Below are positions 9,184 through 37,700 of a stretch of DNA of 46,663 bases, piece by piece. The DNA lies in NCBI GenBank assembly GCA_009885845.1, contig VFJW01000016.1, forward strand, positions 1 through 46,663. Direction: 5' to 3'. Numbering within the stretch: the first letter of the stretch is position 1; every line of letters begins with the position of its first letter. The position numbers and the translations under genes are program-made. Below the pieces are notes generated by a model, which searched no databases, was not told where the DNA came from, and worked only from the letters and a program-made list of their open reading frames with translations. This DNA is from Geobacter sp. (lineage in GTDB: Bacteria; Desulfobacterota; Desulfuromonadia; Geobacterales; Pseudopelobacteraceae).

Positions 9184-10686
9184 TTACTGCTGTTTTCCGG
9201 CTGCCACCGTAGAACCGGCAGACTGCACCTCGAAATCTTTAGCTCCCTTGGGAAGATTGGCAAGAACAATAACAAAAGGGATCGCCTTACCAGGGGCTAC
9301 TTCCATGTTAGCCAGAGAATCACCAAACTGATTTGCCATGGCGGCCTCGATCTTGTCGAGCGACAGACTCTCTAACTGCTCCTCCGTGAGAGGGTTCCCG
9401 CCATACGCATTTTTAGTGGCAATGCTTTGTCCATCGGCGTCAAATATCGTCACTTTGACTTGCAGCGCTGCCCGAATTTCAGCATACTCATTGAGAGCTT
9501 CACCTGAAATAACCAGCAGCTCTCCCGCCTCATCATTGTCAATAAAGGTTGCTATGACCGATTTAACGCTGATCTTTCCGGCATCATGAAGAGCGGTTTC
9601 AGAATGATTGGAAAACGAAGAAAAACCAAAAAAACCGACAACCGAAATAACCGCAAAAGCGATTACCGCGATCAGTGCCCGTGAAATGTGAAGATCTTTG
9701 CGACGCGAAGCAATCGAGAGCGGCGGCAGCTCCTGCTGATCACCGGAAGGAATATCTCCCAAAAACACCTGAGAAAATTCATCGTCAGTTGATTTGTTCT
9801 TTTTTTCAGCCAGAGGGGCAAACAGAATCTCCTGCGAGGGTTTCAGGTCATCAGGATTTACCTGCTGAACAGCAACCGATGTAAGTTCATCGCCAAAATC
9901 AATTTCTCCAAGATTGAATGGTACATCTCCATGCGAATCAAGTGAAAACGATGTGCCGCTCGAAACCGTTGAATCCTGCCCCCCCGCGCCCATCGATTCA
10001 GTAAAACTGTCATCTCCAAAATCAAATGAGATGGTGTTACTTAAAGGTTCGGCAACATCTGGCACAACCGCTCCGAACATGGCATCATCGGAGAAATCAA
10101 GTCCCTGCGGCGACTCTTTTTTCTGGGGGGTGACAGGAGCAGATTCAATCGTTCTGTCAGACAAGGCTTCTACTGCCGCTACAGACGGCGGTTCAGACTC
10201 GGTTTCGCCGTCATTAAAATCAAAACCTGAAAAATCGACCTCATTCTCATTATCGGCAGGATTATCATCTGCGGCAGACTCATCATTAACGGCAGGACTA
10301 TTCACGTCGATGCCATCATGTGGTTCATCTGGTTCAAACGACAGTGCCGAATCATCAAAGTTCGAAGTCTCAAACGAGCTGAAATCCACTGGTCCGCTAT
10401 CGGCCGGAGAACTTTCAAAAATATCTGTATCCAGAGATTCATCCGGAACAAATTCCGTCGCAAAATCCTGATCTTCGGAAGCCGCTTCCGGCACTTCATC
10501 CGGAGTATCAGAAAAAGAAAATTCGGCCAATGCATCATCAGGTTCAAATGAAGCAATTTCCGGTTCTTTCTTCTGCACGGTAAAGACATATTTACACTTT
10601 GTGCAGCGGACTTTTGCGTCTTTATCGGTGACCCTTGAGTCATCAAGCCGAAATCTGGTCTGGCATTTTTCGCATTGGATTATCAT
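9184..10686 (-). CDS. MJ0042 zinc-ribbon, single-pass membrane protein (DUF3426)
   Basis: A 500-residue protein in three parts. Residues 1-36 form a zinc ribbon with C5, C8, C28 and C31 (CEKC...CTKC), matching the MJ0042 family. Residues 40-320 are an acidic, low-complexity stretch with recurring Phe/Asp motifs such as FDFNDGE, LDFSDDAMF and FDFGDDSF, probably disordered. One transmembrane helix (337-358) precedes a C-terminal DUF3426 domain (to 500). With no signal peptide, the ribbon should face the cytoplasm and DUF3426 the periplasm. Function unknown; the layout suggests a sensor or scaffold. It has its own promoter at 10755-10783. Confidence 0.85.
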   Translation of the reverse strand: MIIQCEKCQTRFRLDDSRVTDKDAKVRCTKCKYVFTVQKKEPEIASFEPDDALAEFSFSDTPDEVPEAASEDQDFATEFVPDESLDTDIFESSPADSGPVDFSSFETSNFDDSALSFEPDEPHDGIDVNSPAVNDESAADDNPADNENEVDFSGFDFNDGETESEPPSVAAVEALSDRTIESAPVTPQKKESPQGLDFSDDAMFGAVVPDVAEPLSNTISFDFGDDSFTESMGAGGQDSTVSSGTSFSLDSHGDVPFNLGEIDFGDELTSVAVQQVNPDDLKPSQEILFAPLAEKKNKSTDDEFSQVFLGDIPSGDQQELPPLSIASRRKDLHISRALIAVIAFAVISVVGFFGFSSFSNHSETALHDAGKISVKSVIATFIDNDEAGELLVISGEALNEYAEIRAALQVKVTIFDADGQSIATKNAYGGNPLTEEQLESLSLDKIEAAMANQFGDSLANMEVAPGKAIPFVIVLANLPKGAKDFEVQSAGSTVAAGKQQ

Positions 10687-24680: not shown

Positions 24681-25721
24681 ATGTCCTTCCGAACTATCGA
24701 ATGGCGCGATGACACCGTCATAATGATTGACCAGACCCGCCTGCCGGGAGCAGAGATCTACAATACCTACAGCGATTTTCAGTCGATTGCGGAAGCGATC
24801 AAAGGAATGATCATCCGGGGAGCACCGGCAATTGGTGTAGCAGCCGCCATGGGTGTTGCTCTGGGGTCACGGTCAATCATCGCCGATACCCATGAATCTT
24901 TTTTCCGCCAACTCGATAATATCTGTGAGGTTCTGGGGCGAACCCGGCCAACGGCGGTCAATCTTTTCTGGGCAATAGAGCGGATGAAGCGGGTTGCGGA
25001 GAAAAATCGCGGCGGTACTCTTGACACCATTCGTGATGCTCTTAAAAAGGAAGCGATCCGGATCGAGAAAGAGGATCTGACTATCTGCAAAAACATCGGC
25101 AAATGGGGTGCTACCTTGATTCCGGAAGGGGCCACCGTTCTGACACATTGCAATGCCGGCGGCCTCGCTACAGCCGGTTACGGCACCGCGCTCGGCGTGA
25201 TCCGAGCCGCTCATGAGGCGGGGAAAAAGATTCAGGTTTTTGCCGACGAGACCCGTCCCTGGCTGCAGGGTGCGCGTTTGACCGCCTGGGAATTGATGAA
25301 AGAAGGGATTCCGACAACGCTGATTGCCGACAACATGGCCGGATTCTTTATGAGCCGCGGCGAAATAACCTGTTGCGTCGTCGGTGCCGACCGTATCGCC
25401 GCCAACGGTGATACCGCCAACAAGATCGGCACCTATTCCGTTGCAGTGCTGGCTAAAGAAAACAACATCCCCTTCTATGTCGCCGCACCGGTTTCCACCC
25501 TTGACCTGACTCTTGCCGACGGCAGCAAGATACCGATTGAAGAACGTCCCTACTCTGAAGTAACCCATATCAAGGGGATTGCGATCGCACCTGCAGGAAT
25601 TCGGGTGCGCAACCCGTCGTTCGATGTGACCCCCGCCCGATACATAACTGCAATCATCACTGAAAACGGCATCGTGAAAGGTGACTACCGGAGTGGTCTG
25701 CGCAAGATCTCCGGTACCTGA
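24681..25721 (+). CDS. mtnA: Methylthioribose-1-phosphate isomerase
   Basis: Converts 5-methylthioribose-1-phosphate to methylthioribulose-1-phosphate in methionine salvage; related to eIF2B subunits. The catalytic Cys157 ([17 protein letters not shown]) and Asp237 ([12 protein letters not shown]) are present, as are [12 protein letters not shown] and [14 protein letters not shown]. At 346 residues it is full length. AAGGAG precedes the ATG. Its stop lies 1 base before the glnE start, so the two are transcribed together. No other mtn genes are visible in the window. Confidence 0.96.
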
Positions 25722-25722
25722 C

Positions 25723-28700
25723 ATGCATATTGAACGCTTCTCGCAGGAGTTCCGCCGGATCATCAGCCTGTCAGATCCGGTCCGGAAACCACAGGAGCTT
25801 GCCACATTCCTGGAATCCCGCGGTTTCCAGCACGGAAACCAGAGCGCTGATAATATCCTCCTGCTCAGTCATCTGTTCACTATCGAAACCCTGCACCGCA
25901 TCGTCGTCTATGCGCTCATGACCCCCTCGCCTGACCAGGCGCTTAACTCCTTCGAACGACTGGTCGGGGTCATCTCTCCGGAAACTCTGGCTAAATTGGC
26001 TCTGCGCAGAAAACGACTCGCCCAGTGCATACTGCTCTGCGGTTCATCACCTTTTCTGGTGAACCTGATGTACAAATCCCCTGATACCCTCCACTGGCTG
26101 TTTCTGGAAAACGGCATCGATCTTTCCCGCTCTACAGAAGAGATGCTGAACGCCGTACTGGCAACTGTCGATGAAACAACCGATTTCAACTCACTACAGA
26201 AAGCGCTGCGCTGTTTCAAGCGGCGTGAAATAGTACGGATTGCCGCACGCGATCTGAACGGCCTGGCCCAGCTCGAAGAGGTTATGGGTGAGCTGGCCGA
26301 CCTCGGCTCGTCAACGCTGCAGGCCGCCTATCAGGTCTGCCGTCGCTGCCTGATACGGGATCATGGTGCCCCGCTGCTGGCGGAAGAGCCGCATGCCGGG
26401 CAGGAAGCAGAGATGACGGTCATCGGCATGGGTAAGCTGGGAGGGCGCGAGCTTAATTTTTCTTCCGACATCGATATCATCTACTTTTATGAGTCAGACA
26501 AAGGTGAGACAGCTGGCTCCGGAGGAAAAAAAGGGGTCATCTCGCTTCATGCCTTTTTCAACAAGCTGGCTGAGATGATCAGCAAAGCGCTGTCACAGGT
26601 AACTGAGGACGGCTTTGTCTTTCGGGTGGATGTCGGACTCCGGCCGGAAGGGAAGTCGGGGGATATGGCGGTTTCACTCCGTTCCGCCGAAGTGTACTAC
26701 GAATCCTGGGGGCAGTCCTGGGAGCGCACCGCGATGCTGAAAGCGAGGCCGGTGGCTGGCAGCCTGGCGCTTGGTGAACAGCTGCTGAGAACCCTGCAGC
26801 CGTTTATCTATCGAAAATATCTCGATTACAACCTGATCGAGGATATGAAGCAGATGAAACAGAAAATAGATGCCTCACTGGCCCGTTCCCGAGAGGGAGA
26901 GAGCAATCTTAAGCTCGGTCGTGGGGGGATCCGGGAAATCGAGTTTTTCATCCAGGCCCTGCAACTGGTGTATGCCGGCAAAAACCCGAAGCTGCGAGAA
27001 CGCAATTCACTGCACGCTCTGGACACCCTGCTGACAGCGCAATTACTGGGTGAGGAAGATCACCGCAAGCTGCGGGAAGCATATCGCTTTCTCCGTTCGG
27101 TCGAGCACCGGATTCAGGTTGTGCAGGAACGTCAGACACATAATCTGCCGGCAAAAGAGGAGGAGATGCTGGCGCTGGCGCGGCGCAGCGGCTATCTGCG
27201 AGCCAATGGACTGGAGCGTTTCCGCGCAGTGCTGGAAGAGCATCGCGGCGATGTTTCCTTCATCTACGGCACCCTGTTTTATTCAAGCGACCAGCAGCCG
27301 GAGCAGGAGGTTCACCCGCAGGTTCTGTTTCTTCTTGATCCCCGCGCCGATTCAGACCTGGTCAAAGACCTGCTGGCGGAGCGCCATTTTGAGGATGTAG
27401 AGCGTGGGTATGAAAATTTGATGTCGCTGCGGCGTGGACCGGTAAAAGGCAATCTGGCCGAACGGAGTCGTCGCATACTGGAAAAGATCGCACCACTCAT
27501 GATTCAGGAGATTTTTGAATCACCCGATCCCGACATGGCGCTGAGCAATCTGGAACGGTTCATGGCGGTAGTCGCCACCCGCTCCTCCTATTATGCTCTA
27601 CTGGCAGAAAACCGCGCCACGATCAAACTGCTGGTGACGTTGTTCGGCATGTCAGAATTTCTTTCCAAAATTTTGATCAGTCATCCGGAACTGCTGGACA
27701 GCCTGGTTGCCCGGACCGGTTCCTCCGATGTCAAAACAAAAGAAACGATGAACGATGAGCTGGATATACTGCTGGAACAGAGCGATTATTTCGAGGATCA
27801 TCTGAATATCCTGCGACGATACCGCAACGAGGAGTTTCTCCGTATCGGCCTGAATGATATCCATGGCCGCCTGCTGCAGGGAGAAGTCACTGCGCAGCTC
27901 AGCCTGCTCGGGGAGGTCTGTCTGGCGACGGCTTTCCGCCTGGCAACTGCAGAGTTGCAACGGTTTGGCCGGCCGACCAGGCAGAACGAGGGGAAGAATA
28001 TCGGGGCACATCTGGCGATCATCGCCCTGGGAAAGTTGGGGGGGGGCGAACTCAACTACCATTCCGACCTGGACATCATCTTCGTCTATGATCATCAGGG
28101 GGTAACGGACGGTGAGAAGCAGATCTCCAATCACGAATATTTTGCCAAGCTTGCCCAGAAGATCATTTCGATCCTGACCATGCAGACCCGCGAGGGGTTT
28201 GTCTACAAAATCGATACCCGTCTCCGGCCGTCCGGAAATGCGGGGCCACTCGTGACCTCCCTGGAGTCATTTCTGGAGTACCACCGCACGGAAGCCCAGA
28301 TATGGGAGCGACAGGCGCTTACCAAAGCCCGTGTTGTGTTCGGCGATGGCGTATTGGCTGACCAGCTGCATGATATCATTACCCACACGATTTACGGTAA
28401 AACCGTCGATGATGAGGGGCGGCGGGAGATCTACCGCCTGCGCATGCGCATGGAAAACGAACTGGCCCGGGAATCAAACGGCAGCTACAACATCAAAACC
28501 GGCAGAGGGGGGATGGTGGATGTTGAATTCGCCGTTCAGTATCTCCAGCTGCGGGAAGGGTGTCGCTGCCCCGGGCTGCAGACTCCCAATACGGTTGTCG
28601 CACTCAAGGAGATCAGTACGCTGGGACTGCTGCCGGACGGGAGCGCCCGGACTCTCCTGGCCGGATACAAGTTTCTGCGTAAACTCGAAAACCGCCTCCG

Positions 28701-28878
28701 GATTATTCATGATTACTCGGTCAATGATCTCTCTGGGACGAGAATCTATCTGAACAAGCTGGCACGCCGCATGGGGTATGATCCAAAGCTGAAGAATCCG
28801 GGAGCTGCCCTGATCTGTGACTATGAAGAGATGACGGGTAAAATCCGGGATGTGTTTGACAGGTTGTTTGTGGTGTAG
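25723..28878 (+). CDS. glnE: Glutamine synthetase adenylyltransferase/deadenylylase
   Basis: Adds and removes AMP on glutamine synthetase in response to PII, tuning nitrogen assimilation. The two nucleotidyltransferase domains show GMGKLGGRELNFSSDID (about residues 233-249) and ALGKLGGGELNYHSDLD (about 765-785), each with a helical GlnE/GlnD-like region between and after. From the ATG at 25723 the protein has 1051 residues, somewhat longer than E. coli GlnE (946). A GTG 42 bases upstream, inside mtnA, is in frame but less likely. Ribosome-site match is weak, consistent with translational coupling to mtnA. Confidence 0.95.
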   Translation: MHIERFSQEFRRIISLSDPVRKPQELATFLESRGFQHGNQSADNILLLSHLFTIETLHRIVVYALMTPSPDQALNSFERLVGVISPETLAKLALRRKRLAQCILLCGSSPFLVNLMYKSPDTLHWLFLENGIDLSRSTEEMLNAVLATVDETTDFNSLQKALRCFKRREIVRIAARDLNGLAQLEEVMGELADLGSSTLQAAYQVCRRCLIRDHGAPLLAEEPHAGQEAEMTVIGMGKLGGRELNFSSDIDIIYFYESDKGETAGSGGKKGVISLHAFFNKLAEMISKALSQVTEDGFVFRVDVGLRPEGKSGDMAVSLRSAEVYYESWGQSWERTAMLKARPVAGSLALGEQLLRTLQPFIYRKYLDYNLIEDMKQMKQKIDASLARSREGESNLKLGRGGIREIEFFIQALQLVYAGKNPKLRERNSLHALDTLLTAQLLGEEDHRKLREAYRFLRSVEHRIQVVQERQTHNLPAKEEEMLALARRSGYLRANGLERFRAVLEEHRGDVSFIYGTLFYSSDQQPEQEVHPQVLFLLDPRADSDLVKDLLAERHFEDVERGYENLMSLRRGPVKGNLAERSRRILEKIAPLMIQEIFESPDPDMALSNLERFMAVVATRSSYYALLAENRATIKLLVTLFGMSEFLSKILISHPELLDSLVARTGSSDVKTKETMNDELDILLEQSDYFEDHLNILRRYRNEEFLRIGLNDIHGRLLQGEVTAQLSLLGEVCLATAFRLATAELQRFGRPTRQNEGKNIGAHLAIIALGKLGGGELNYHSDLDIIFVYDHQGVTDGEKQISNHEYFAKLAQKIISILTMQTREGFVYKIDTRLRPSGNAGPLVTSLESFLEYHRTEAQIWERQALTKARVVFGDGVLADQLHDIITHTIYGKTVDDEGRREIYRLRMRMENELARESNGSYNIKTGRGGMVDVEFAVQYLQLREGCRCPGLQTPNTVVALKEISTLGLLPDGSARTLLAGYKFLRKLENRLRIIHDYSVNDLSGTRIYLNKLARRMGYDPKLKNPGAALICDYEEMTGKIRDVFDRLFVV

Positions 28879-28917
28879 GGCGCATTACGTTTTAACGGTT
28901 TTTCAGGAGATCATTCT

Positions 28918-30129
28918 ATGCTGTCATCAACAAAACTTTCCGTCGCTTTAAAGACAGAATACCTCGATCGGCTTCAGCAGCTCGGCACGACGATTACGCT
29001 TGCTCCAGGTGCGACGCTTTTTGATGCCCATTCATCCTCCGGTGAAATGCACGTCATTGTCCAGGGGGACATAAACCTGTACAAAGCAGGACAGGATCTG
29101 CCGGTGGTCTGGTTGGGACCGGGAGATATTCTCGGCGAAATCGGATTTATCCTCCGCACCCCCCGCACCATATCTGCCCGCGCCGGTATGCATGGGTGCC
29201 TCCTCTGGCGGCTTGACCGCCGGGTCATTTCGCCCCGCATGGATGCGGAGATCACTGACATTCTGACCCGACTCTTCATCGGCATGGCACCCTACGTCCG
29301 GGTCCGGTATGCCAAGTTGACCGGCGGTTACGGCCACTCAGCAAAAATACTTGAACAGCATTGCGACCATCAGCATCCCGTCATTCAACATATGGCCGAG
29401 TTTCTTATAGGACGTGATACCTGGGAAACTGCCGGAAATATCTGGGAGTATGTCCGCTACCTCCCTTACCGCTTCGGTTTCTGGAATCTGCTCGCGTCGC
29501 AGGTACTGCAGATGGGCTACGGCATGTGCACGACCAAGACCAATCTGCAGGTTGCCCTGCTGCGGGCCTGTGAAATCGAAGCGGCCTTTGGCGAGATAGA
29601 CTTCCCTTCCGAACGGATGAAACCGCTGATTCCTGAAGGGTATCACCACATTCTGGCAATTGAACCGAATGTAAAGCATTACTTTGGCGTATTCCGCATC
29701 GGCGACGACTGGTATCCGTGCGATGCCACCTACCCTCCCCAGGTCTGGGAGCTGCTCAATCCCGGACAACCGGAAAGCCTCTTTGAGCCGGGCAGCCCCT
29801 TCAACCCCTGTAATGCTCTGATCGACAGACCGTTTGACGCCTATAAACGCTTCGACAATCTCAACCACGTCCTAAAAAAACGCCCCTTTTACGATGCCGA
29901 CAATGTGGAGGCGATGAATATTATTCTGGACAAGGTGCAGGGGCCGTTTCTGATGCTTCCCGAATGGGTGGTTCCGATCCACTACCTGATGCGGGAAGTC
30001 CCGCATGCCGCATTCCAGCGGGCATACGCCGGTATTATTACCGAGATGGAGCGACTCTACCGGGCGGTACAGGTGTCGACCGGAGAGGCAGAAGCGCCCC
30101 GTGATGCGGGAAGGATTGCGGTGCTGTAG
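28918..30129 (+). CDS. Cyclic-nucleotide-binding domain fused to a transglutaminase-like domain
   Basis: A 403-residue protein with two recognisable parts. Residues about 20-120 form a Crp/CAP-type cNMP fold with the phosphate-binding cassette GEIGFILRTPRTISARA, including E74 and R83. Residues about 175-280 match a transglutaminase-like core: C204 in MGYGMCTTKTNLQVALLRA, H254 in VKHYFGVF and D269 in WYPCDATY form the Cys-His-Asp triad in the right order. A C-terminal helical region (to 403) follows. No DNA-binding HTH is visible, so it is not a simple Crp regulator. It could be a cysteine peptidase or transferase switched by a nucleotide. It sits 39 bases after glnE with a CAGGAG site. Confidence 0.8.
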   Translation: MLSSTKLSVALKTEYLDRLQQLGTTITLAPGATLFDAHSSSGEMHVIVQGDINLYKAGQDLPVVWLGPGDILGEIGFILRTPRTISARAGMHGCLLWRLDRRVISPRMDAEITDILTRLFIGMAPYVRVRYAKLTGGYGHSAKILEQHCDHQHPVIQHMAEFLIGRDTWETAGNIWEYVRYLPYRFGFWNLLASQVLQMGYGMCTTKTNLQVALLRACEIEAAFGEIDFPSERMKPLIPEGYHHILAIEPNVKHYFGVFRIGDDWYPCDATYPPQVWELLNPGQPESLFEPGSPFNPCNALIDRPFDAYKRFDNLNHVLKKRPFYDADNVEAMNIILDKVQGPFLMLPEWVVPIHYLMREVPHAAFQRAYAGIITEMERLYRAVQVSTGEAEAPRDAGRIAVL

Positions 30130-34304: not shown

Positions 34305-34358
34305 ACTGATGGTTAAATTTTTTACTTCACTGCTCGATAATTCATGGGAGGATGCCTT

Positions 34359-35531
34359 ATGCACGGTACAGGGAACCCGTTTTCAAAAACAGTCATTGGA
34401 GACAATGAACCGCTCTGTAATCAAAAGGAACTTCTTGCTGCACTTATGCTGGAAGCTCATTCAGGCAACAACAATGTTCTGCTTGCGCCACGCAGAGCCG
34501 GAAAAACATCCCTTGCGATGAGGTTGGCAAGGAATTATCGTGCGCAAGGAGGATTAGCAACGTTTACTGATCTCAGTGCTGTTCCGTCAACTGATGCGGC
34601 TGCAGAGCGGATTGCAACCGCTCTATTCGCCGCATTGAGTATTAACGATAAAATATTCAAGAAATTATCGCAATTGGTGACCGCTTTTGTTCCCGTTATT
34701 ACCATGAATCCCGATGGTTCTTTCTCGGTGTCCGCGTCAGCTTCAGGAATTTGTAAAAATGGCCTGGACAGGCTTGTTTCAGTCGTTGCTTCACTTGACA
34801 GAATATCCACGCAATCTGATATGCCATTTCTTGTGATATTGGATGAGTTTCAGGATCTGGCTATGTTGAGCGACGGCGCTCTAATAGAAGCTGCATTACG
34901 TTCTACCATACAGCATCACAAAGCATCATACTTGTTCATAGGTTCGCGCAGAAAATTATTGCGTGATATGTTCGAATCGCCTAACCGAGCCTTTTACCGG
35001 GGAGCAACGACGAGAGAACTTCCTTTTATCAATAAGGATGAATTTTCTGTCCATCTGATCGAACGAGCCGGAACCTCGGGAGCCGTCTGGCCACGAGCCA
35101 TCACCGACACTATTGTCGCCACTGTAGAAGCTCATACGTACAGTGTTACTGCAATCGCACATACTCTGTTTGAAGCTACCGCACCACATACACCGAATGA
35201 AGACGATCTTACAGATGCCATACATATAACAACGACGAGAGAAACTTCACTCTTTATGTCCATCTACGCTTCACTGACCCCGCAATCTCGCATCCTGCTG
35301 GAAGCCCTTGCGGCCGAAGCGACGAAACATCCTATGGCGGGGGATTACATGGCACGACACAAGCTAACCAATGCAGCGACTGTTAAAAAATCACTGCTTA
35401 CGCTTGTGAACGGAGACCATATCGCGATCAATGAAGACGGCTTTACCTGTCTTACCGACCCATTATTGAAGCGCTGGCTAACTACAAGATGGAGTAAGCG
35501 TAATATGCTCAGCAGTTTGCTACCGGAGTAA
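34359..35531 (+). CDS. AAA-type ATPase with a C-terminal winged-helix-like region
   Basis: A 390-residue ATPase of unknown role. Walker A is APRRAGKTS (about 46-54), Walker B VILDEFQDL (about 157-165) and sensor-1 FIGSRRKLLRD (about 191-201). The C-terminal 90 residues (LTPQSRILLEALAAE to LTDPLLKRWL) look like a winged helix. The layout resembles STAND/Orc1-Cdc6-related 'ATPase domain' proteins widespread in bacteria and archaea. I chose the ATG at 34359 because GGGAGG lies about 8 bases upstream; the ATG at 34344 overlaps the ribosome site. Codon use is more AT-rich than neighbours, and the gene sits where obgE is usual, so it may be horizontally acquired. No partner gene is adjacent. Confidence 0.8.
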   Translation: MHGTGNPFSKTVIGDNEPLCNQKELLAALMLEAHSGNNNVLLAPRRAGKTSLAMRLARNYRAQGGLATFTDLSAVPSTDAAAERIATALFAALSINDKIFKKLSQLVTAFVPVITMNPDGSFSVSASASGICKNGLDRLVSVVASLDRISTQSDMPFLVILDEFQDLAMLSDGALIEAALRSTIQHHKASYLFIGSRRKLLRDMFESPNRAFYRGATTRELPFINKDEFSVHLIERAGTSGAVWPRAITDTIVATVEAHTYSVTAIAHTLFEATAPHTPNEDDLTDAIHITTTRETSLFMSIYASLTPQSRILLEALAAEATKHPMAGDYMARHKLTNAATVKKSLLTLVNGDHIAINEDGFTCLTDPLLKRWLTTRWSKRNMLSSLLPE

Positions 35532-35537
35532 ATCAGT

Positions 35538-37700
35538 TTATTTGAATAAACTATGTGTGAGTCTCACATGGTAGCTTTTGTTTCGATTTGCACACGCCAA
35601 CCCTGCAACTGCACTTAAAAGGATGAACATCAGCGTCATCAGGGGAAATTCAATAAGTAAGACAATCGGTGTTAGTGCCCAGCGGGACAGGATACGCAAC
35701 GTGTCATGCTCCGATATGACAGCGGCAACCGGGGGGCTCCAACGGTAGTAGAGAGACACAAACGCCCGGCCGGGGGCGTTTGTGAGAAGTCGGGTGTCCC
35801 GGAAGTCCCGAAGAAGACGGACGTGGGGATGGAGATAGCTGCCGTAGGCCGCCGTAGCGATGAAGCAGTAGCCGTTGCTTTCTGGTGCAGACGGTAGAGT
35901 GGCAGTTTCTGCGGTGGCCGTTATGGTGAGGCTCTCCACTACGATATTTCCGGTATTGTCCGTGATTCTGAAGCGGACGTAGTAGGTCCCAGCCGTTACG
36001 AAAGTATGGGTAATTTGAGAAGTGGTCCCCGGGATCGCTTTGAAGATCCCTTCACCCAGATCCCACTCATATTTCGTTATGGATGCGGCGGACCGGATCT
36101 CCGCGGTGAGATCGACAGTCAGTGGAGCGACCCCAGAAACGGATGAGGCTGAAAGAGTAATGAGCGGCACAATCGTCACCGGAAAGCCGCTCCCCTGGCC
36201 ATTAACCCTGACAGTACCACTTTGAGCGTTTTGAGGAATGACCGCCGTTATCTGGGTATCGTTCCAGACACTGACGGTCATAGTTGTTCCGGCAAGAGCG
36301 ATACTTCCGGGTGAGACGCCAAAATTAGCCCCTTTGACCGTAATTGATCCGCCATTCCAGTTCAGCTGATAGGGAGAGACATCAAATACCGTCGGAATGT
36401 CCAGGGCGTTCAGCGCTTTCTCAAGATTCAGTCTGCCGCCGGTAATAGTTTTCCCGGCAAAGGCGGCGACCTGGTCAACACCATTTAAAATGCGTGCCTT
36501 CACCTGAACCGCGCTCAAGCCAGGATGAAGGTTCCAGATCAATGCTGCAGCACCGGCCACCTGCGGTGCTGCCATTGAAGTTCCTGCCGTTGTCCGGTAT
36601 AACGTGGCACCATTGTCAAGCCATACCGTGCTCAGCACGGCATCGGCTGATCCGGTTGCGAAGCCGCCCGGGGCCGCAAGCTCCACCGTATGTCGTCCGT
36701 AGTCGGAATACGACGGCATGGTGTCTGATGAGGTAGAGGCGGCGACTGCAATGTTGACGGGAGATCTGACCGATGCGGGGAAAATAGCAGTCTGATCGAG
36801 ATTCAGCCCCACGTTGCCGGCAGCCGATATTACCAGCACTCCTGCATTTTCTGCTGCCGTGATCGCATCACGCAGCGAGCCGGAATCCTCATCCACCTCA
36901 AAACTCATGTTGATGATCTTCGCCCCCCTGGAGAGGGCATATTCAACTCCTCTCAAAGCGTCGATCAGGTCTCCCATCCCTTCAGGACCATGAAGGAATT
37001 TGACCGCCATTATTCTCGCTGCCCAGTTGATCCCGGCACCACCGACACTGTTATTGCCTGCTGCACCGATGATCCCTGAGACATGAGTGCCATGACTGTC
37101 TGCCGTATCATCGTCCCAGGGGTCTCCCGAGGCCTGAGTAGTACTGCCGAAGTTTGCCCCATAACAGTCATCAATTATGCCGTTATTGTCGTTGTCGATG
37201 CCGTCACCGCAGATTTCGCCGCTGTTCACCCAGACATTCGGTGCAAGATCGGGGTGAGAATAGGCCATGCCGGTATCCAGCACCGCGACGATAATGGAGC
37301 CGACCGCCCGGGTTCCCGCAAAGAGATCCCATGCGGCGGGGGCGGAGATCAATGGCAGGTGCCACTGACTTCCATAATTCGGGTCGTTCGGCACCACCGA
37401 CTTCCGGACACGGTAATTCGGTTCAGCATAGAGAACATTTGGATCGCTCTTGAACGATGCCACTGCTTCCTGAACCGACACCCCTGCCGGGAGTTTGATG
37501 TGATGTACGGGAAGGCGCTGGAATTTACGTATAATAGAGGATTTTTGAAGTGAGACGCTTTTTGCCGCTTTCTGCGGGTTTTTGAAGCGGACAATCAACT
37601 CACCTTCTTTGTAAGACTGCAGCGGAGCAGCGGACACGGCGGGGACATACATCGCAATCAATAGCAGCTGAATGGCAGCCAGACATAATTTCATCAACAT
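35538..37700 (-). CDS. Exported subtilisin-like serine peptidase (S8) with IPT, PKD and CFI-box C-terminus
   Basis: A 720-residue secreted protease. Signal peptide 1-24; an I9-like propeptide about 30-98; an S8 catalytic domain about 110-430 with triad D142 (VAVLDTG), H203 (DSHGTHV) and S375 (AGTSMAAPQ), plus N296 for the oxyanion hole. An EF-hand-like loop (GIDNDNNGIIDD near 167-178) may bind calcium. Then an IPT/TIG module (about 435-520), a PKD module (about 525-600) and CFIATAAYGSYLHPH (about 615-629). That last feature is the start of the 'CFI-box' C-terminal sorting tail, which continues to a transmembrane helix near the end. It probably is processed or anchored at the surface. It is convergent with the ATPase gene. 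Confidence 0.92.
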   Translation of the reverse strand: MLMKLCLAAIQLLLIAMYVPAVSAAPLQSYKEGELIVRFKNPQKAAKSVSLQKSSIIRKFQRLPVHHIKLPAGVSVQEAVASFKSDPNVLYAEPNYRVRKSVVPNDPNYGSQWHLPLISAPAAWDLFAGTRAVGSIIVAVLDTGMAYSHPDLAPNVWVNSGEICGDGIDNDNNGIIDDCYGANFGSTTQASGDPWDDDTADSHGTHVSGIIGAAGNNSVGGAGINWAARIMAVKFLHGPEGMGDLIDALRGVEYALSRGAKIINMSFEVDEDSGSLRDAITAAENAGVLVISAAGNVGLNLDQTAIFPASVRSPVNIAVAASTSSDTMPSYSDYGRHTVELAAPGGFATGSADAVLSTVWLDNGATLYRTTAGTSMAAPQVAGAAALIWNLHPGLSAVQVKARILNGVDQVAAFAGKTITGGRLNLEKALNALDIPTVFDVSPYQLNWNGGSITVKGANFGVSPGSIALAGTTMTVSVWNDTQITAVIPQNAQSGTVRVNGQGSGFPVTIVPLITLSASSVSGVAPLTVDLTAEIRSAASITKYEWDLGEGIFKAIPGTTSQITHTFVTAGTYYVRFRITDNTGNIVVESLTITATAETATLPSAPESNGYCFIATAAYGSYLHPHVRLLRDFRDTRLLTNAPGRAFVSLYYRWSPPVAAVISEHDTLRILSRWALTPIVLLIEFPLMTLMFILLSAVAGLACANRNKSYHVRLTHSLFK

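Follow-up and report, generated by a model that had tools for sequence, protein, structure and literature searches.

In a Geobacter sp. contig, we found a gene whose product, here called CNTG, joins a Crp-type cyclic-nucleotide-binding (cNMP) domain to a transglutaminase-like core in a single chain. We give a rough probability of 0.45, somewhat below even odds, to the reading that CNTG is a cytosolic cAMP-gated cysteine enzyme working within a surface-protein signalling module; its location, ligand, gating, catalysis and substrate are all inferred from sequence. The gene occupies positions 28918–30129 (+) of the window, by which we mean the whole 46,663-nt stretch of DNA analysed, and encodes 403 aa, with a Shine-Dalgarno-like AGGAGA (28905–28910, +) recognised by eye 7 nt 5′ of the ATG. 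It is supported by two Pfam domains, by orthologues and by purifying selection.

An earlier note on this DNA had read a cNMP domain followed by a transglutaminase-like core, and this order was borne out by profile searches in which both domains scored over their Pfam cut-offs. In the ORF translation, E74, R83, C204, H254 and D269 stand at the residues the note had given. The same note held that CNTG lacks a DNA-binding domain, which agrees with searches against Pfam (E≤0.1) and NCBIfam (E≤0.01), where no Crp/Fnr-type helix-turn-helix was matched. Beyond PF00027 and PF01841 there was no Pfam match in CNTG at E≤0.1, and no NCBIfam family was assigned to the protein at E≤0.01. A C-terminal region, residues 321–358 (29878–29991, +), reads KRPFYDADNVEAMNIILDKVQGPF..PEWVVP.HYLM and is strongly conserved, being almost unchanged across five orthologues; it had no Pfam or NCBIfam match. 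The window as a whole contained no Rfam families at gathering scores.

Full-length orthologues were present in 5 of 141 genomes of the order, the window's own (G000) included, and these fall into three genera. Two share the genus of the window genome, G090 (locus L001, 89% identical to the window copy) and G076 (L002, 84%), while G069 (L003, 65%) and G139 (L004, 63%) belong to two other genera. Among the matches listed for 277 genomes of the class, no other protein spanned both halves. When the second half was used as a query against 395 genomes of the phylum, the window gene gave 552.9 bits and matches elsewhere reached at most 176.7 bits; the protein with this score (G317:C32) has 232 aa and was rejected as a second-half relative, being close to L019, a member of the query alignment A2. 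An exact-peptide-pattern scan of 84,980 species genomes, which detects close relatives only, returned four loci, those of the other four orthologue genomes. Outside the window's phylum, the survey consisted of this pattern scan together with viral contigs and plasmids. A close-relative scan of viral contigs did not recover CNTG. Viral contigs yielded two transglutaminase-like contigs and one cNMP locus, L098 and L099 repeating the contigs of L096 and L095, and the viral rows, misplaced beyond the Cys helix in A8/A9, were trimmed for alignment A10. The single plasmid match was a transglutaminase-like gene without a cNMP part.

Both halves of CNTG look to be under constraint, judging from codon comparisons. 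Between the window copy and L001, dN/dS was 0.063 for residues 1–120 and 0.049 for residues 141–390, with dS above 1, and between the window copy and L002 it was 0.080 and 0.110 for the two halves; since dS was near or above 1 even in the closest pairs, these ratios are rough. For the second half of L004 against the other four orthologues, dN/dS was 0.17–0.27. In the five-orthologue alignment (A1), L003 was cut at residue 390 and L004 at residue 393, their ORFs reaching 404 and 401 aa, respectively, from the aligned start.

The transglutaminase-like core spans residues 170–269 (29425–29724, +). PF01841 (Transglut_core) matched CNTG at 23.1 bits against a cut-off of 23.0, a margin of a tenth of a bit, and fell below the cut-off in both orthologues that were scored singly (L003, 19.5 bits; L004, 16.6 bits), so that the assignment was put to further tests. 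A profile built from A1 recovered class-wide relatives of the second half, the best at 59.3 bits (E 3e-16, residues 141–274), and 38 transglutaminase-like relatives were picked by profile match to this region and trimmed by hand. Using hhalign, A1 was compared with relative sets of 14 and 23 rows, which together hold 37 of the 38 (L064 is in A6 and absent from A3/A4); one set matched with a probability of 98.5% (E 1.8e-15, residues 149–271) and the other with 97.7% (E 2.1e-12, residues 150–281). Across the five orthologues and 38 relatives, 41 of 43 rows matched Transglut_core at E≤0.001, and the two rows without a match are taken to be L003 and L004 because these scored below the cut-off singly. 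A solved structure, 3isr, a transglutaminase-like putative cysteine protease, was matched at residues 154–274 (E 6.1e-5) by the 43-row mixed profile A6 only, and was not among the best 60 of 114 matches listed for the orthologue-only profile A1 against the PDB. In the test alignment, a Cys stood opposite C204 and a His opposite H254 in every one of the 38 relatives. Given the hhalign results, the Cys and His of the relatives, the 41 of 43 rows and the 3isr match, the assignment of the second half to the transglutaminase-like family, as first proposed in the note, is firm at the level of profile comparison.

The relatives are bacterial proteins that share a homologous core with CNTG and gave no match to a CNTG-type cNMP profile. 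They differ from it opposite D269, where 14 carry Asp, 23 Thr and one Ala. The Thr-bearing proteins (e.g. L058, L065, L073) make up a large group that keeps Cys and His.

The complete Cys-His-Asp series, in order, is found in CNTG and in three of the four other orthologues. The candidate nucleophile C204 is encoded by TGC (29527–29529, +) and is kept in four of the five; H254 (29677–29679, +) is the same residue in all 43 aligned rows, and D269 (29722–29724, +) is Asp in all five orthologues. In L004, the codon for C204 is replaced by AGC (Ser), with H254 and D269 retained. This Ser could represent a true loss, a serine variant, or an error of sequence or assembly; L004 comes from a metagenome-assembled genome of 75% completeness. 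AlphaFold2 models built from shallow alignments had a mean pLDDT of 30.3 for full-length CNTG (5 rows) and 42.2 for residues 141–384 (7 rows), and a Foldseek search with the latter, low-confidence model matched no fold in the PDB at E≤0.001. The reading of CNTG as a cysteine enzyme is weakened by the Ser at 204 in one orthologue and by the low pLDDT of these structure models.

Under one alternative, catalysis would have been lost from the transglutaminase-like half, or be unnecessary there, and CNTG would be a nucleotide-switched binding scaffold. Non-catalytic scaffolds do exist among transglutaminase-like folds, and such a role would accommodate both the modest Transglut_core scores of the two singly scored orthologues and an L004 second half that remains constrained with Ser in place of C204. 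However, the triad is whole in four of five orthologues, Cys and His are universal among the relatives, and a single base in an incomplete metagenome-assembled genome could be a sequencing or assembly error. We consider this pseudo-enzyme unlikely, at perhaps one chance in a few, and keep to a cysteine enzyme as the preferred reading of the second half.

The cNMP domain occupies residues 27–103 (28996–29226, +), where PF00027 scored 37.3 bits against a cut-off of 27.5; the L003 and L004 orthologues scored 51.5 and 37.9 bits, respectively. Its phosphate-binding cassette, G73-E74 ... R83-T84 (29134–29169, +), reads ILGEIGFILRTPRT and is identical in all five orthologues, E74 and R83 included, and the cassette Glu and Arg were kept in 23 of 23 aligned cNMP-domain relatives. 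Against the PDB, the five-orthologue profile matched the cNMP domains of PKA (2e-7), the diguanylate cyclase 5h5o (4.6e-7), SthK (~7e-6) and Bd1971 (0.0023); a PKG domain was also among the matches of this half, and PycTIR (E 0.42) was not significant. The N-terminal half is thus placed by its profile matches in the cNMP_binding family, as a putative cyclic-nucleotide binder, with cAMP versus cGMP not readable from the residues.

A cyclase is the neighbour that a cNMP domain would predict, and in two of the five genomes (G069 and G090) a PF00211 match lay within 10 kb of CNTG. In L003, CNTG ends at 9215 and a 747-aa protein with CHASE2 and Guanylate_cyc domains is encoded on the same strand from 9255, after a gap of 39 nt. 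In L001, the genes that come after CNTG on its strand encode, in order, a 1111-aa protein (choice-of-anchor Q domain), a 178-aa protein of lipoprotein-like appearance (by eye), a TPR protein, a FecR protein and a 661-aa CHASE2 and Guanylate_cyc protein, the last of which starts ~6 kb downstream of CNTG, behind the surface-type and FecR genes. With only 33% identity between the two linked cyclases, these may be separate associations. By eye, they read DKFIGD or DKYIGD and YTVIGD or YTVMGD (the patterns of our script matched nothing), which we take to be the mark of an adenylate rather than a guanylate cyclase. In the other three CNTG genomes, all PF00211 matches (six in the window genome) lay on contigs other than that of CNTG. 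Each of the five CNTG genomes had two to six PF00211 matches; among 20 genomes without CNTG, chosen from listings and not at random, 14 had at least one and 7 at least two. Under random placement, the chance of a cyclase within 10 kb in at least two of five genomes is 0.0024, a value computed after the neighbour had been seen.

Genes for surface-type proteins recur near CNTG in the relatives. In L004, near a contig end, a 166-aa lipoprotein-like protein ends 1 nt before the aligned CNTG start; it is 32% identical (E 2e-8) to the 178-aa protein of L001, and its gene is preceded by pieces resembling the 1111-aa protein. In L002, the frame after CNTG exceeds 2600 aa, contains kelch, delta-60 and MBG repeats and runs off the stretch, and a separate contig of the same genome, not joined to the first, again carries a 1111-like end, a 178-like protein, TPR, FecR and a CHASE2 cyclase. 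The window genome has, on contig C52 and apart from the window, a homologue of the L001 cyclase (47%) adjoining a homologue of the L004 lipoprotein-like protein (41%). The surface-protein and lipoprotein-like neighbours of CNTG in the relatives hint at where it may act. Cohesin- and dockerin-like features were suspected by eye in the neighbouring lipoprotein-like and repeat proteins and were dropped, having no Pfam support; an outer-membrane-like end of the TPR protein, matched below cut-off only, is not claimed.

Two gene sets were noted in their own right. A repeat-type protein, a small lipoprotein-like protein, TPR, FecR and a CHASE2 cyclase recur together at L001 9249–17200 and at L088 (G076:C82), with or without CNTG, and L087 (G000:C52) has only the cyclase, the lipoprotein-like protein and pieces of repeat type. 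At L003 9255–16570, a CHASE2 cyclase, a WD40-caspase-like gene and a ShlB-type two-partner secretion gene stand in a row and look like a signalling and surface module of their own.

A second alternative concerns the ligand: the Crp-type domain may take another molecule (a cyclic dinucleotide or other) or be structural, leaving CNTG free of cNMP control. Crp-family domains with other ligands, or without any, do exist. Against this stand the cassette G-E...P-R-T, unchanged in all five orthologues, the match of the domain to the solved PKA, PKG and SthK domains, and the cyclase genes near CNTG in two of five genomes, and we regard a different ligand, or none, as distinctly improbable.

For the nucleotide-gated cysteine enzyme, which the earlier note had put forward as its own inference, the evidence is in partial support: the reading gains from the presence of E74 and R83 in five of five orthologues and from a class III cyclase beside or near CNTG in two of five genomes. 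The most economical account would be that cAMP from CHASE2 cyclases switches the cysteine peptidase or acyl-transfer chemistry of CNTG. CHASE2 is an extracytoplasmic sensor domain. Class III cyclases of the CHASE2 type would produce a cyclic mononucleotide, most likely cAMP, which would be bound by the Crp-type N-terminal domain of a cytosolic CNTG; binding would switch the C-terminal transglutaminase-like domain, and Cys204-His254-Asp269 would then act on a protein of the cytosol by cysteine peptidase, amidase or acyl-transfer chemistry. That protein may come from the surface-protein and lipoprotein-like module encoded beside CNTG in the relatives. Counting against a cAMP-gated module are the immediate neighbours of CNTG in the window, glnE and a histidine kinase gene, and the lack of a cyclase match on the CNTG contig in three of the five genomes.

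The gene order in the window is mtnA, glnE (25681–28878, +), CNTG and then a convergent GAF-histidine kinase gene downstream, with 39 nt between glnE and CNTG. A link between CNTG and nitrogen metabolism, which the earlier note called unproved when pointing to glnE, found no support. On that account, CNTG would be an accessory of the adenylyl transferase GlnE within one operon, and it does follow glnE on the same strand after a short gap in the window and in L001, and comes next after glnE in L002, mtnA-glnE lying upstream in both of these loci. These three genomes, however, are of one genus; in L003 and L004, of the other two genera, the stretches surrounding CNTG showed neither mtnA nor glnE (for L004, 1.3 kb upstream only), and a full-length CNTG match is absent from 136 of 141 genomes of the order. 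We judge the nitrogen account very unlikely and ruled it out as the main reading, glnE being a neighbour in one genus only. When ten proteins from the L001, L003 and L004 neighbourhoods were compared with the window, only CNTG itself matched.

Scarcely any weight falls on a last alternative, that CNTG is a Pycsar-type anti-phage effector whose cysteine enzyme is switched on by a phage-triggered cyclase signal. In its favour, PycC models of PADLOC match the L003 cyclase (best 107.8 bits), the WD40-caspase gene comes after that cyclase, and the cNMP part of CNTG has a weak PycC match (15.5 bits). Against it, both linked cyclases carry CHASE2, that of L001 sits amid surface-type, TPR and FecR genes, the PycC match may simply mirror the common cyclase fold, PADLOC gives no other CNTG match at E≤0.01, the close-relative scan of viral contigs found no CNTG, and the arrangement of a Pycsar effector, cNMP with TIR or TM beside PycC, was not seen, with no PF00211 on the window's contig.

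If cAMP gating of CNTG is correct, direct control of a cysteine peptidase-like enzyme by cAMP within one chain would add a type of output to bacterial cyclic-nucleotide signalling, and the gene pairing would offer a concrete cyclase-effector pair in Geobacter-like bacteria. Surface proteins matter for attachment in these bacteria. That a cNMP domain can be joined to an enzyme is already known (Bd1971, the diguanylate cyclase 5h5o, PycTIR); like CNTG, PKA and PKG, SthK, Bd1971 (a Bdellovibrio EAL protein), 5h5o and PycTIR all pair a cNMP domain of the Crp type with a non-DNA-binding output. Judged by their names, none of the cNMP-gated PDB chains among the matches listed has a transglutaminase-like output, whereas CNTG has one. 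No report of a cNMP-transglutaminase fusion was found in the literature searched, which covers few subscription papers, and one conflict-systems paper mentions both domain types, with no such fusion among the passages available from it.

The LapG/LapD and DvhG/DvhD pairs offer a comparison, as protease systems under c-di-GMP control that are directed at large adhesins. LapG has a transglutaminase-like fold and serves a surface adhesin in response to a cyclic-dinucleotide signal (PMC4359373). It is periplasmic and is controlled in trans by a separate c-di-GMP receptor. In a sulfate reducer, the Dvh system is described as a functional analogue of Lap in which DvhG targets two large adhesins (PMC13090378). 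Like LapG, CNTG is transglutaminase-like, and in its relatives it lies near surface-protein genes. Unlike LapG, it bears a cNMP domain in its own chain, and inspection of its N-terminus by eye revealed no signal peptide. No LapG-type curated family was matched in CNTG (Pfam E≤0.1, NCBIfam E≤0.01), which on the tests made is not a predicted member of the LapG family. A full cAMP version of the LapG/LapD logic, in which a CHASE2 adenylate cyclase and FecR would sense the envelope and a cytosolic CNTG protease, switched directly by cAMP, would process or release giant surface proteins or a lipoprotein-like partner from the same locus, is a long shot.

Two further loci of the window genome were recorded. 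On contig C158 (L089), ~3 kb separates a transglutaminase-like gene from a class III cyclase, which may be chance. Within the window, the product of positions 35541–37700 (−) carries a C-terminal CFI-box domain together with subtilisin-type matches, the protease models scoring below cut-off, and it adjoins a protein encoded at 34344–35528 with AAA-type matches below cut-off.
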